In this document: positions 39,735 through 60,712 of the stretch, in pieces | Numbering within the stretch: the stretch's first letter is position 1 | How the letters are laid out: each line of letters begins with the position of its first letter | NCBI GenBank assembly: GCA_903854335.1 | Contig: CAINVY010000005.1 | Span: 62,001-126,000, forward strand | Reading direction: 5' to 3' | Source of the DNA: an uncultured Candidatus Peregrinibacteria bacterium | GTDB lineage: Bacteria > Patescibacteriota > Gracilibacteria > Peribacterales > Peribacteraceae | DNA length: 64,000 nucleotides | Notes under the pieces: generated by a model | Seen by the model: the letters and a program-made list of their open reading frames with translations, nothing else | Told to the model about the DNA's origin: nothing | Database searches by the model: none | Translations under genes and position numbers: made by a program

Positions 39735-40184
39735 ATGAAAGTCACCCTTCTCCTCGGTTCGAAATCCGACAGCGACTTCGCACAGAAGATCGTCGCCGTT
39801 CTCGACGAATTCTCCGTTCCTTCACAGATCATCGTCGCTTCGGCCCATAAAGTACCGGAGAAGGTCATCGAGACGATCGAGGAATTGAATACGGATCCGC
39901 AGCCTCAAGTCGTCATTACCGTGGTCGGCATGAGCAACGGACTCGGCGGTGTTGTCGCCGGCAGCTGCGTCCATCCTGTCATCACCTGCCCCCCGCTCAA
40001 GACGCTCGAAGAGTACCAAGTCGATCTCCATTCGAGTCTGCGCATGCCGTCGGATGTTCCCGTCATGACGGTGCTGAACCCCAAAAATGCGGCGCTCGCT
40101 GCCGTGCGGATCCTGGCGGAAAGCGATGAGGAGCTCAAAGGGATGCTGAAAACGCGGATTGCAAGGATCAAGGCAGAGTACTAG
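39735..40184 (+). CDS. purE: N5-carboxyaminoimidazole ribonucleotide mutase (PurE)
   Basis: 149 residues, class I PurE length. Moves the carboxyl group of N5-CAIR to make CAIR in purine synthesis. GSKSDSDF (substrate phosphate loop), ASAHKVPE (catalytic His region, usually SAHRTP) and GMSNGLGGVVAG (usually GGAAHLPGMVA) are visible. The last two blocks deviate, so an unusual PurE branch is likely. TATACT (39723-39728) ends 6 nt before the ATG. Confidence 0.9.
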   Translation: MKVTLLLGSKSDSDFAQKIVAVLDEFSVPSQIIVASAHKVPEKVIETIEELNTDPQPQVVITVVGMSNGLGGVVAGSCVHPVITCPPLKTLEEYQVDLHSSLRMPSDVPVMTVLNPKNAALAAVRILAESDEELKGMLKTRIARIKAEY

Positions 40185-54461: not shown

Positions 54462-55854
54462 ATGCACCGTACTCGCGCTCTCTTTGTCCTGAGTCTACTC
54501 CTGGCCGTGATACTCGGGACTGTGGTTGTTAGTGGGGTTGGTCATGACACAACACTCTTTCTTCCGTTCCTCGCCTCATCAAAGAAAATGACATCGAAAC
54601 CAAGTACGCCTCAACAACCTCTCGTAACGAAAGATAAGAATGCAAAAGGGTACTGCTGTATTTCTAAAGCAACGCAGGAGTGTAGCAAAACCTACATGAC
54701 TTTGAGAGAGTGCCTCTCGAAGAAAGGTGCTTTTTTTTGCAGCTCAGGAATCAAATGAGTCGTGGCAACGATGTAATGAACAAGTGTGCGGCGGGAAACT
54801 TCAGAGTACGATCTCTGTCCAGTGGGACCCTCCTCCAAGCACCTTTGACAATGCGACTATCACGCTCAAAGCAAGTGTTCAGCCCTCTGATGCTGGCGGA
54901 ATGGTGGCTTTCGATTTCAATGTATCAGACCATGAAGAGGCTCCCCTCGTAAACGGGCTGGCATCTCTTGCTCTACCGATCAGTGCAGGGAAAGACTACC
55001 ATGTGGGTGTGGTGTACTACGGAGATACAAAACACAAAGGATCGCACACCGTCGCAAATATTCTCGCTGCACAACAGCCAAATGTCTGCTGTGTTTGCCA
55101 ATATGATGACAGAAGTGACAACGTCTGTGCGAAGTACAAACCCGAAAATATTAGTGATTGTCCATTTAATGAGAATGGCGTGAATTGTATAGGTGAGGAA
55201 GACGGAGGAAAATTTTCATGCATTCCGTATTTTCGGAAAGTTTGCCAAGACTGGCTTTCGACTCAGGGGGGTGATTGTTCGATAAAGAAGATGACTCCGA
55301 TCGGTGTAGTCCCTAGTCAGGAATCTCTTGCGGAGTGCAAGAAAATGAAAGGATATGTCGCGCAACACAGCGAAGTAGAAAAATGCGGTGCATTTGAGCA
55401 CGATATTGAGTCGTGCTTAAATTGCATTGGACCGGAGTGTAAGAATATCAGCTTCACTCACATGGGCTGTCGTACCTTTGGAAATGATACTGTGGCAGAT
55501 ACATGGATGAAGCATTTGAAGTCTAAACTCAAACCTGGTCAGACTCTTAAGGTGACAGCGAATCAAGATATATCTACACCAACTTGTACCTCATATGAAA
55601 CGTACGAGTTAACCATTGATACGCTTAATGTACATGCGGATTATTGCCAGATTGATAATTTCTGTTCTCTCAGCGATCAACCACATCCAGTATGGTGCAC
55701 TCTCAAATCAGATAATAAACAGGTTCAGGAAATCTGCTGCAGAAATCCAGAAAAAAGAAATTATAGTAATCCTGACCAAGGGAATTACATTCAAGGAAAG
55801 AGTTGTCCGTGGCCTCAACCTAAACGTCCAAGCATAAGATTCGTAGAGCCTTAG
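54462..55854 (+). pseudogene. Cys-rich secreted protein gene interrupted by a frameshift at a T8 run
   Basis: Frame 1 from ATG 54462 gives a signal peptide (MHRTRALFVLSLLLAVILG), a Thr/Pro linker and a Cys-rich segment (YCCISKATQECSKTYMTLREC) that stops at 54758. The same Cys-rich style continues in the +1 frame from just after the T8 run at 54731-54738 to the stop at 55854. Removing one T fuses the frames into about 463 residues with more than 30 Cys (CCVCQ, CLNCIGPEC, CRTFG). Whether this is a mutation, a sequencing slip or transcriptional slippage cannot be told. Cargo of the 1.7-kb unit. Confidence 0.65.
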
Positions 55855-57340: not shown

Positions 57341-59023
57341 ATGAAAATACCTACCTTTCACCGCTATCACGCCGAAACAATGAGTACCCCTGACTCCGAA
57401 CCCCCGCTACAGGCAGACCGAAGACCGTCGATCGATCTCAGAATGGAAGGAAACGGCGAAGGAAGCAGATCGATGCATGTCGGAATACGGCGTACCGCAT
57501 TCCGGAAGCAGCTTGGCTCGATCATGCGCATCAATGGATACGGACCGGAAGATGCGGAAAAAGAGGCACGACATTTTCTCACGAAGTACTTTCAGGAAAA
57601 TGTACAGGCGTCGGAAACCATCGTGGACATGCATGACATTATCCACGAATTCCTCTTGAGAGCGCCGCGCGTGAACTTCCTCAAATGCATCGACGGACGC
57701 GAACATGGCAGTAAGGGAATAGGATATCCGCCAACCACCATCGACTTCTTCCGCACGGAGGGATGCCGACTCAATACCGGCATCGGCAACATGCCGTTCT
57801 GGCGACGCATGGATCGCAGAGCCATCGATGCCGCTCGCTGTACACCGGGGACTCCCGCCCTCTTCATCGCGCAAGCACATACCGGGCATATGGGTGGAGG
57901 ATGCGCCGCACAAGCAAGAGATGCGAATGGGGAACTTCTGCCAAAATCTACCGTGATTGAGAATTCACTTCGGACGGTCACGGATCATGCCGAAGCGGTA
58001 CGAAGGCAATACTCTCCGGATGCGGTCTACGCAATTCACGGCATCACGAACACCGATGATATGTCGAAACGTTTCATCTTTCCGGATAGAACCGTCATCG
58101 ATACATCTGAAATTATTGAGTCCACAAGGAAGAAGTGCGCTCTCCTGCATTCATCGGATGTCTTTACGGCGAATTTCCTCAATCATCCGATCCCGGATAG
58201 CGCAATCGGGCAGCACACGGAAAACCTGAAGGTTCGGGAAATCATGGGGGGAGACGACGCTCCCATGTACCGCAGACTCGAAACAGCCATCGCAATGGAA
58301 GCGTATCTCCTCAGGGAAATCTCTTCCTCCGCACAGAGCGGCAACAACACGATTGTGAATCCAGCGGTCTTCCATGCCGTCCAGTCCATCCTGGAAGACA
58401 TCAGTGATCTCCCGCAATCCCTGAAAGGCCCGCTCCTCTACCAGACGATTTGGAATATCGCCTATACCCTCTATCAGAGGAACCGCCTGGAAAATATGTC
58501 GCCAGAGGAGAGAGAGGAACATCTCGAACATGCCGAGACGCTCGTCTGCTACGGAGAGGGATTCGAACTCCTTCCCCGCAACAAAGCCATCCTTGCGAAG
58601 ACCGGTCGCGGAGATGACCGCGCCGCGCTGCTTGTAGCGAAGACCGTCTTGGAAGGAAATAGAAAGAAGAGACCGCAGAATCACAAACCGATCGTCCACA
58701 TCAACGTGGAAACCACGGGAAGAGTCGACAGCTGGAATGCGTTTAACGAGCAAGTATCTTCACGACTCGCCGCTATGACACGGGAGGTCTACGACGTCTT
58801 TCAAACCGACGTCTCCGTCGTTACGACCTACTCGCATCAGGAACAGAAGAGGTACTATCCAGTGCAGACATATCCCGCGACGCCAGAGAAGCCTCACGAT
58901 CCGCGACTTTCCTTCCCCATCGATCTCTCCGTCGGCCTCAAGAATGATCCGACCTTTGCGAACGAACTGATGCGACGCGAACATGAGTATGCGGATGAGA
59001 TGTTCACGGATAATAACCATTAG
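57341..59023 (+). CDS. beta-carbonic-anhydrase-like metal-site protein, paralogue 1
   Basis: 560 residues from ATG 57341 (57380 is equally possible; any longer frame would include tRNA-Arg). It contains KCIDGREHGSKG (Cys116, Asp118, Arg120) and, 64 residues on, AHTGHMGGGC (His180, Cys188). CxDxR plus a later His and Cys is the zinc and Asp/Arg dyad pattern of beta-type carbonic anhydrases, although those use HxxC, not Hx7C. The C-terminal half (ETLVCYGEGFELLPRNKA, conserved with paralogue 2) is unassigned. No signal peptide. Enzymatic function is inference. Confidence 0.65.
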   Translation: MKIPTFHRYHAETMSTPDSEPPLQADRRPSIDLRMEGNGEGSRSMHVGIRRTAFRKQLGSIMRINGYGPEDAEKEARHFLTKYFQENVQASETIVDMHDIIHEFLLRAPRVNFLKCIDGREHGSKGIGYPPTTIDFFRTEGCRLNTGIGNMPFWRRMDRRAIDAARCTPGTPALFIAQAHTGHMGGGCAAQARDANGELLPKSTVIENSLRTVTDHAEAVRRQYSPDAVYAIHGITNTDDMSKRFIFPDRTVIDTSEIIESTRKKCALLHSSDVFTANFLNHPIPDSAIGQHTENLKVREIMGGDDAPMYRRLETAIAMEAYLLREISSSAQSGNNTIVNPAVFHAVQSILEDISDLPQSLKGPLLYQTIWNIAYTLYQRNRLENMSPEEREEHLEHAETLVCYGEGFELLPRNKAILAKTGRGDDRAALLVAKTVLEGNRKKRPQNHKPIVHINVETTGRVDSWNAFNEQVSSRLAAMTREVYDVFQTDVSVVTTYSHQEQKRYYPVQTYPATPEKPHDPRLSFPIDLSVGLKNDPTFANELMRREHEYADEMFTDNNH

Positions 59024-59097
59024 ACATCCGACAGACAGAATGTGATCTGCCACGCTCCCCTCTTGCAAATCTTCGAAATCTTAGGATACTCCGTGCT

Positions 59098-60573
59098 ATG
59101 ACTTCCGCCCCCAAGACCTCAGCATCCAACTCTGCTTTCCTGACGTATCTCAGAGAGAATGTGAAATCCGCGGATACGCTGCGAAGCATGAAGACGATCA
59201 TCCAGGAGTTCAGCACACGCGCTCCTCGCGTCTTCGCATCGAAATGCATCGACGGACGCGTCCATGGAAGCAAGGGGAAAGGCTACCCCATCGGCACCAT
59301 CACCTTCAATCGCACGGAGGGGAACAATATTGATACGAGCTTGAGCAACACTGCGTTCTGGAATCGCCTGAACGGCGTCGTCCTCGATGCGCGATACAAC
59401 ACACCGGGCGTTCCCGCCATTTTCTTCGCGCTCGGCCACTGCTCGGGACACGGGCACGGGTGCGCAGCGCACGGCGGCGATGATGGCAAGGCACTGGAAG
59501 CCGTCACGAAACAAGCGATGGCTGTGCGGGAACGGTACACACCCGAAGACATCATCGTCATCCATGGCATGACCAACACGGATGATATGTCCGAGCGTCT
59601 CATCTTCTGCGACGGGTCGGTGCTCGACACGGAGGAAATCATCGCCGCTCTGGAGAAAGCCGGAACGAAGATCTTCCACCCATCCGATGTCTTTCAGCCG
59701 CAGTTCCTCTCGAAACCTCTCGACGACATCGCCACGGATCGTTACGTCGGACACAAGACACCCGCAGAACTCTTCGAGGGGGTGGGGGCTCCCGTCTACC
59801 GCGACTTGCAGACGGCACTCGCGATGGAAGCGTATCTTTTGCGCGAAATCTCCCGCATCGATGCCTCCGACGGCAAGACGAACGACATCGTTCATCCAAA
59901 GATCCTCCAAGCGGTGACGGACACCCTGAAGAGCATCGAAAAGTTTCCCACGAGACTCAGGGCTCCGCTGCTCTACCAGAGCATCTGGAACATCGCCTAC
60001 ACCCTCTACCAACGACGCAGACTCGAAACGATGGATCATGAGGAACAAGAACTTCACCTGGATCATGCGGAAACGCTCGTGTGTTACGGCGACGGCTTCG
60101 AGGCACTCCCGCGCAACAAAGCCGTCCTCGTGAAAACAGGAAGAGGAAATGACATCGATGCGCTCACGGTCGCACGCAACGTGCTCCTCAATAATCGAAA
60201 GAAGCGACCGCAGGCACATCCGCCGCTCGTACACATCAACACGGAAGTGGTCGGCAAGATCGATACCTGGGATACCTTCAATGACCAGGTCCTCTCGAAG
60301 ATCGCGACGATGACGCAAGCGATCCACGAAGTTTTCCAAACGGATGTGTGCCTCCTCACCACATACTCATACAAGGGAGAGAAGAAGTTCTATCCGATCA
60401 GCACTCAACCGAATGACGCGTCCACCGGAGATGCGTTACCGCGCATGGAGTTCCCGCTGAACGTTGCGCGGGATCTCAAGGCAAATACACTCTCGCGATC
60501 GGAGCTGGCCGTCCGCGAAGGAACGTACAGCCAGATGATGCGCATGGACGAATCCGTTTCTTCGGAAAAATAA
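59098..60573 (+). CDS. beta-carbonic-anhydrase-like metal-site protein, paralogue 2
   Basis: 491 residues. Clearly homologous to the preceding gene along its whole length: KCIDGRVHGSKGKGYP, IHGMTNTDDMSERLIF, HPSDVFQPQFL, GAPVYRDLQTALAMEAYLLREIS and ETLVCYGDGFEALPRNKA. Candidate ligands Cys50, Asp52, Arg54, His114 and Cys122 keep exactly the spacing of paralogue 1. The N-terminal extension of paralogue 1 (about 66 residues) is missing. It follows by 75 nt, likely co-transcribed, and is closed by a strong terminator. Confidence 0.65.
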   Translation: MTSAPKTSASNSAFLTYLRENVKSADTLRSMKTIIQEFSTRAPRVFASKCIDGRVHGSKGKGYPIGTITFNRTEGNNIDTSLSNTAFWNRLNGVVLDARYNTPGVPAIFFALGHCSGHGHGCAAHGGDDGKALEAVTKQAMAVRERYTPEDIIVIHGMTNTDDMSERLIFCDGSVLDTEEIIAALEKAGTKIFHPSDVFQPQFLSKPLDDIATDRYVGHKTPAELFEGVGAPVYRDLQTALAMEAYLLREISRIDASDGKTNDIVHPKILQAVTDTLKSIEKFPTRLRAPLLYQSIWNIAYTLYQRRRLETMDHEEQELHLDHAETLVCYGDGFEALPRNKAVLVKTGRGNDIDALTVARNVLLNNRKKRPQAHPPLVHINTEVVGKIDTWDTFNDQVLSKIATMTQAIHEVFQTDVCLLTTYSYKGEKKFYPISTQPNDASTGDALPRMEFPLNVARDLKANTLSRSELAVREGTYSQMMRMDESVSSEK

Positions 60574-60600: not shown

Positions 60601-60628
60601 TAAACGCCGCTCCGAGGAGCGGCGTTTA
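60601..60628. terminator. bidirectional intrinsic terminator
   Basis: TAAACGCCGCTCC and its complement, nearly loopless on paper (effective loop CGAG), between convergent paralogue 2 and the Lys-rich mini-gene. Confidence 0.75.
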
Positions 60629-60643
60629 TACATACACTGAGAC

Positions 60644-60712
60644 TTACTTCCTCTTCTTCTTCGTCGCCTTCTTGGTCTTCTTCACCTTTTTCTTCGCGGT
60701 CTTCTTCGGCAT
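60644..60712 (-). CDS. 22-residue Lys-rich peptide
   Basis: ATG (60712) to TAA: an almost pure Lys/Thr/Ala peptide (MPKKTAKKKVKK...). It resembles the tails of histone-H1-like bacterial proteins and the N-terminus of the rpsJ product here. It is followed by the terminator at 60601-60628. Too short to be certain; the codon pattern and terminator favour a real gene. Confidence 0.45.
   Translation of the reverse strand: MPKKTAKKKVKKTKKATKKKRK

Follow-up and report, generated by a model that had tools for sequence, protein, structure and literature searches.

Two adjacent genes in a 64,000-nucleotide stretch of an uncultured Candidatus Peregrinibacteria bacterium (contig CAINVY010000005.1; the whole stretch is hereafter called the window) encode homologs of CsoSCA, the carbonic anhydrase of carboxysomes, in an assembly that has no match to the carboxysome genes tested. 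From sequence comparison and structure modeling, it is probable that the two proteins, named P0002 and P0001, are free-standing cytoplasmic zinc β-carbonic anhydrases (β-CAs) of the CsoSCA architecture (epsilon-type, pseudo-dimeric) that supply bicarbonate. Judged by sequence, they and their relatives constitute a separate, long-branched clade that the standard Pfam and NCBIfam models miss; non-carboxysomal relatives of CsoSCA as such were already known, namely CsoSCA2. The two genes and the predicted active-site residues of P0002 are as follows.

57341..59023, plus strand: P0002, upstream paralog, CsoSCA-like family; ATG start, 560 amino acids.
59098..60573, plus strand: P0001, downstream paralog, modeled as a CsoSCA fold; ATG start, 491 amino acids.
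57686..57700, plus strand: CIDGR of P0002 (C116, D118, R120), predicted zinc Cys and Asp-Arg dyad, from alignment of the family profile to the C/D/R of CsoSCA.
57878..57880, plus strand: H180 of P0002, predicted zinc His.
57902..57904, plus strand: C188 of P0002, predicted second zinc Cys.

The initial annotation, made from the sequence by eye, had described this pair as tandem paralogs with a metal site like that of carbonic anhydrases, possibly a diverged branch of the β-CA/CsoSCA type, and the open reading frames (ORFs), the motif and the affiliation all withstood the analyses below. The genes lie head to tail with a spacer of 74 bp, and their products are 49% identical over 483 amino acids, which makes them tandem paralogs. 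The similarity, at first described as a long shared C-terminal half, is real but is not restricted to that half, since it spans nearly all of P0001; P0002 has an extra N-terminal extension of about 66 residues. In both proteins, the Cys of CIDGR is followed 64 residues later by a His, and eight positions further (seven residues between) by a Cys. The P0001 set is C50/D52/R54/H114/C122, with C50 encoded at 59245-59247, H114 at 59437-59439 and C122 at 59461-59463. When all six-frame open stretches of at least 100 amino acids in the window (53,936 residues) were scanned for C.D.R with a His 52-68 residues on and a Cys within 13, P0001 and P0002 were the only ORFs with the pattern. Conservation was assessed on 21 family members, of which 19 come from genomes or loci elsewhere and share 32-79% identity with P0001. 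All five residues were invariant in 21/21; the Cys-His spacing was 64 in 20 of the 21 and 66 in one, and the His-Cys spacing was 8 (H-x7-C), or 10 in three members (H-x9-C). Because the five residues are invariant across these members, the motif is conserved, and a chance occurrence was ruled out, considering also that only two ORFs of the window match it. Canonical β-CA (Pro_CA) was ruled out as well, since neither protein matched PF00484 at E up to 10, and the spacing is H-x7-C instead of HxxC.

Searches with the single sequence were weak but specific to CsoSCA. CsoSCA_cat of Pfam was matched at E 0.011 (15.7 bits, below the cut-off of 21.5) and TIGR02701 of NCBIfam at E 0.027 (13.3 bits, below the cut-off of 241), while four CsoSCA sequences were the sole matches in PDB; against the Pfam and NCBIfam CsoSCA models, none of ten family members scored E < 0.0015. 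A profile of 10 members retrieved CsoSCA from PDB at E 6.1e-5, and one of 21 members placed CsoSCA first (2fgy, E 1.5e-6), the next unrelated chain being at 0.095. In the profile alignment, C/D/R/H/C of the family fell one-to-one on C173/D175/R177/H242/C253 of 2fgy (numbered from the chain index); in the C-terminal domain of CsoSCA, another patch (HAE..GxGF..RN) aligned collinearly. By hhalign, the family was also linked to three CsoSCA2-like proteins (probability 97.4, E 1.5e-11). It is to be noted that the comparison with CsoSCA itself used only structures and PDB profile alignments, and that the tree described below contains no authentic CsoSCA sequences.

The fold was predicted and compared with known structures, as the initial annotation had proposed. 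AlphaFold2 was run template-free, with alignments that contained only family members; since PDB entries were part of the AlphaFold training data, the result and 2fgy are not entirely independent. The predicted local distance difference test (pLDDT) score was 84.4 with 10 sequences, and 86.9 with 18, for which the predicted template modeling (pTM) score was 0.88. In a DALI-like alignment, the second P0001 model matched 2fgy_A with Z 23.0 over 342 residues (root-mean-square deviation (rmsd) 3.0, 18% identity), model residues 1-437 corresponding to 2fgy 110-514 and covering both domains. The model scored Z 23.0 against 8thm_B as well, compared with 14.3 for the tandem β-CA 1ddz and 11.9 or less for single-domain β-CAs. 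Foldseek also ranked CsoSCA first (E 4.5e-13), so that the predicted fold is that of CsoSCA and not one unrelated to β-CA; with a TM of about 0.5 and an rmsd of 7.8, the global superposition was loose, an indication that the relative placement of the domains differs from that in CsoSCA. The parts of P0001 are listed below.

59230..59628, plus strand: catalytic β-CA-like core, residues 45-177; strand-strand-helix-strand-helix-strand in the model, and hidden Markov model (HMM) alignment to CsoSCA.
59629..60060, plus strand: helical segment joining the two β-CA-like domains, residues 178-321, in the model.
60076..60372, plus strand: second, pseudo-duplicate β-CA-like domain, residues 327-425, from the model and HMM alignment.

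In the model, the order of elements at 45-160 (strand-strand-helix-strand-helix-strand) recurs at 327-425, and therefore the C-terminal half represents the pseudo-duplicate domain that is also present in CsoSCA. The second domain carries a HAExxxCYGxGF patch that aligns with the C-terminal domain of CsoSCA, and no second CxDxR/His/Cys set exists in the P0001 sequence. The C-terminal half, initially regarded as novel, is in fact mostly the inactive pseudo-duplicate β-CA domain of CsoSCA plus a helical linker. About 44 residues, with helices at 5-30 and 32-41 in the model, precede the first core strand, and an extra helix (466-489) is found at the C-terminus. The stretch after CIDGR (53-58) was of low confidence in the first model, and better in the second.

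By established β-CA chemistry, the zinc would be held by C50, H114 and C122, the D52-R54 dyad would keep the Asp off the zinc, and the zinc-hydroxide would attack CO2. The first domain would be the lone active site, with the second serving as a defunct, dimer-like scaffold. CO2 and HCO3- would then be interconverted cytoplasmically, in a Peribacteria-type cell that has no carboxysomes, and the bicarbonate would feed housekeeping carboxylations, in purine synthesis and others. The cytoplasmic location (no signal peptide was seen by eye) and the supply of bicarbonate to carboxylations are proposed more tentatively than the zinc site and its catalysis.

That no shell or RuBisCO gene is nearby had been observed initially, and this now extends to the whole assembly (96.6% complete), which has no match to PF00936 (bacterial microcompartment shell) or PF00016 (RuBisCO large subunit). 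The assembly has no Pro_CA match either; that search covered canonical β-CA and none of the alpha, gamma or other classes of carbonic anhydrase. Carboxysomal CsoSCA uses an N-terminal hook domain for hexamer formation. P0001 has no hook or RuBisCO-binding domain, as its model starts at CsoSCA residue 110; the extension of P0002 lies outside the model. Like the carboxysomal enzymes (Halothiobacillus 2FGY/9G4T, Cyanobium 8THM), which are its best fold and profile matches, the family has two fused β-CA-like domains with a single predicted active site, the C/D/R/H/C set, and the HAE..GxGF patch in the C-terminal domain. Unlike them, it has no hook/RuBisCO-binding domain, no cso operon, and no shell protein or RuBisCO match in the assembly; it is about 18% identical, has the extra C-terminal helix, and scores below the Pfam and NCBIfam cut-offs.

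Non-carboxysomal homologs with a 40-residue, two-helix N-terminus, named CsoSCA2, have been reported in several candidate phyla (PMC9164163), and ‘non-cso’ CsoSCA sequences have been described with hydrogenase-like clusters beside some of them (PMC11086599). Our family resembles both in being free-standing outside carboxysomes, in its conserved catalytic set and in its occurrence in candidate phyla (PMC9164163, PMC11086599), and the short N-terminus of P0001, with two helices in about 40 residues, is like that of CsoSCA2 (PMC9164163). Its members are, however, longer (464-571 amino acids, against 344-400 in the three CsoSCA2-like proteins, which were self-assigned), and they are not caught by the Pfam models on which these two studies appear to rest (PMC9164163, PMC11086599). 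With canonical β-CA (Pro_CA, PF00484, including the tandem 1DDZ), the family shares the β-CA fold, CxDxR, and the His and Cys ligands, whereas H-x7-C in place of H-x2-C and the lack of a PF00484 match set it apart. The second domain of 1DDZ also holds a metal site, unlike that of the P0001 family. In DAB2, a β-CA-like subunit is paired with a NuoL-like subunit, and the family is like DabA of these complexes in being a divergent β-CA-like, putatively zinc-binding protein with complex-I-like membrane subunits adjoining some relatives (PMC13144422); it differs in having no match to the Pfam DabA models, and in that the adjacent modules are multi-subunit and Hyf-like, not a single DabB, and none was found in the window genome. 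In the literature searched, no paper joining Peregrinibacteria with carbonic anhydrase was found.

Relatives of P0001 were present in 9/59 sampled genomes of the same bacterial family and in 10/353 genomes of its class. Members were also found in Peribacteria/Peregrinibacteria, Leptospiraceae, other Spirochaetota, Myxococcota, one metagenome-assembled genome (MAG) labeled Nitrospirae and one labeled Syntrophaceae. The family search matched 7/393 Spirochaetota genomes, one of the seven only weakly, through a CsoSCA2-like protein; a search of the Myxococcota sample for CsoSCA sequences gave one sub-threshold match. Since the hosts beyond the window genome include MAGs, any one host label could be mistaken; there is agreement among several independent loci. 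Phage and plasmid collections gave no tblastn match to P0001, nor was any relative obtained in viral contigs with either P0001 or the family profile, and a phage or plasmid origin was rejected on these grounds; a CsoSCA2-like query against the plasmid collection also found no match.

In the tree, the family formed its own clade apart from the CsoSCA2-like proteins (support 100/99), on a branch of 4.95 changes per column, which is saturated and is measured against only three, self-assigned, CsoSCA2-like proteins. Two long-branched CsoSCA-like proteins of another Patescibacteria family (L030:1297-2577 and L032:1156-2460, both plus strand) were set aside for their very long branches, although they are connected with the profile of the family (E 4.4e-6, probability 86.7); L032 has CMDEK, with Lys where the Asp-Arg dyad has its Arg. 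Both paralogs occur 1:1, again in tandem, in a second species of the genus, with 79% identity for the P0001 ortholog (L003) and 68% for that of P0002 (L011). P0002 clusters (100/99) with genes that are single-copy in two other genera, and the split between P0001 and P0002 is thus older than the genus. The GCAAH that follows the second Cys ligand is GCAAQ in the P0002 subclade only (Gln in 4/4, against His in 17/17 elsewhere). The P0002 ortholog of the second species also carries about 160 extra C-terminal residues (L011:2941-3426, plus strand) that are not in P0002.

No partner gene was common to all family loci. In Peribacteria, ATP-synthase genes, as read from the ORFs, adjoin the family gene in several loci (L018, L024, L026, L058), and purE does so in L023 and purE-purK in L058, which fits bicarbonate supply. 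A second, unrelated-looking protein of 275-395 amino acids adjoins the CsoSCA-like gene in four loci (L014:9544-10728, plus; L018:6510-7634, minus; L024:7911-8735, plus; L026:6842-7804, plus). These proteins have β-CA-like motifs (CIDGR, CIDER, CMDER or CVEDR, and an HxxC-type CGA), and two of the four have twin-arginine-like N-termini; they match no Pfam family, two searched against PDB gave no convincing match, and they resemble one another only marginally (best E 0.009). Hyf/complex-I-like modules lie near the family gene at the following positions.

L016:6818-14653, Hyf/complex-I-like module.
L020:1-7754, Hyf/complex-I-like module.
L026:2-6728, Hyf/complex-I-like module.
L060:9190-16001, Hyf/complex-I-like module.
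L015:16390-17359, Hyf/complex-I-like module.

The first four, in different phyla, are adjacent to the family gene or one gene away, and that in L015 starts about 7 kb away. The subunits are antiporter-like, NADHdh-like and 49-kDa, with a 20-kDa subunit where found (HyfB/C/F/G-like); the HyfG-like 49-kDa subunit lacks CxxC, and therefore should not carry a NiFe center. An EIIA-type phosphotransferase system gene precedes the module in L016, where it has a helix-turn-helix domain, and in L020. The modules agree with the hydrogenase neighbors of ‘non-cso’ CsoSCA (PMC11086599), and no paper linking ‘energy-converting hydrogenase related’ complexes with carbonic anhydrase was found in the literature searched.

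These neighborhoods raise the alternative that the enzyme and the membrane module are the two halves of an energy-coupled system for CO2 hydration, analogous to DabA-DabB. The proximity of the modules and the DAB2 precedent (PMC13144422) speak for it, as does the rarity of the 49-kDa subunit: Complex1_49kDa was found in 2/59 genomes of the Peribacteria sample, and in one of these, G020, it is beside the family gene. However, the other genome with the subunit, G058, has no match to the CsoSCA-like family, most loci have other neighbors, and in L015 and L060 the module is convergent with the family gene and shares no operon with it. The window genome has no Complex1_49kDa match, so that such a system cannot explain the window pair; it is for this reason that the free cytoplasmic enzyme is preferred there. 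The coupled system is regarded as improbable. A broader version, in which the family represents a third branch, as yet without a name, within the CsoSCA superfamily, with an ancestral role unrelated to carboxysomes, and some members together with the NiFe-less module form an energy-coupled CO2-hydrating pump parallel to DAB and the cyanobacterial NDH-1MS, is rather unlikely.

Several observations weigh against a free-standing carbonic anhydrase. The His-Cys loop is 8 in the family and a longer 11 in CsoSCA, the pLDDT falls to about 71 in the block directly after CIDGR, the alignment to the CsoSCA structure is at 18% identity only, and most relatives in the same bacterial family do without the gene, which is consequently not essential to the group. 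Moreover, β-CA-fold relatives with similar zinc sites hydrolyze carbon disulfide (CS2) or carbonyl sulfide (COS), and sequence alone leaves the substrate unfixed, as C/D/R/H/C conservation does not separate these hydrolases from carbonic anhydrases. Indeed, the fold comparison also matched a carbon disulfide hydrolase (3teo_A, Z 10.2). Nonetheless, CsoSCA carbonic anhydrases are by far the nearest of the solved structures, no gene of sulfur metabolism was observed next to the genes, and the purE and purK neighbors fit bicarbonate use; we see only a slim chance that the CsoSCA fold and zinc site serve COS, CS2 or a similar small molecule. Tandem copies often diverge in function, and the Gln of the P0002 subclade (Q125-type) would make it the likelier candidate for lost or changed catalysis with a structural or regulatory role. 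Yet neither paralog, nor any ortholog examined, departs from the set of five catalytic residues, and both copies have been kept 1:1 in the second species, which renders this very improbable.

The patchy occurrence of a carboxysome-free branch, in Patescibacteria and in phyla of larger genomes, lends support to the published proposal of a fold that predated the carboxysome and was later recruited to it. The pair would fill an apparent gap, the window genome being otherwise without a canonical β-CA match, and offers small proteins in which the role of the defunct domain can be asked without RuBisCO or shell. Because the group escapes current family models, carbonic anhydrases of candidate-phyla bacteria will be under-counted in surveys. 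More speculatively, the hydrogenase-like modules beside some relatives may point to a so far undescribed system of inorganic-carbon uptake.

In the window, the pair is preceded by a tRNA-Arg gene and followed by a convergent ribBA-like gene, so named from reading of the ORF. A possible terminator of the pair, read from the sequence, lies just after P0001.

60602..60630, plus strand: GC-rich hairpin (acgccgctcc gag gagcggcgt), then a short T-containing stretch.

On the strand opposite to P0001, and directly downstream of it, is a lysine-rich ORF of 22 codons (60644-60712, minus; MPKKTAKKKVKKTKKATKKKRK) that resembles tiny basic DNA- or RNA-binding proteins. Upstream of the pair, a cysteine-rich ORF of 375 amino acids (54727-55854, plus) belongs to no family recognized by eye, and a distant purE-like match (39741-40139, plus; 32% identity, E 2e-12) lies about 17 kb from the pair.

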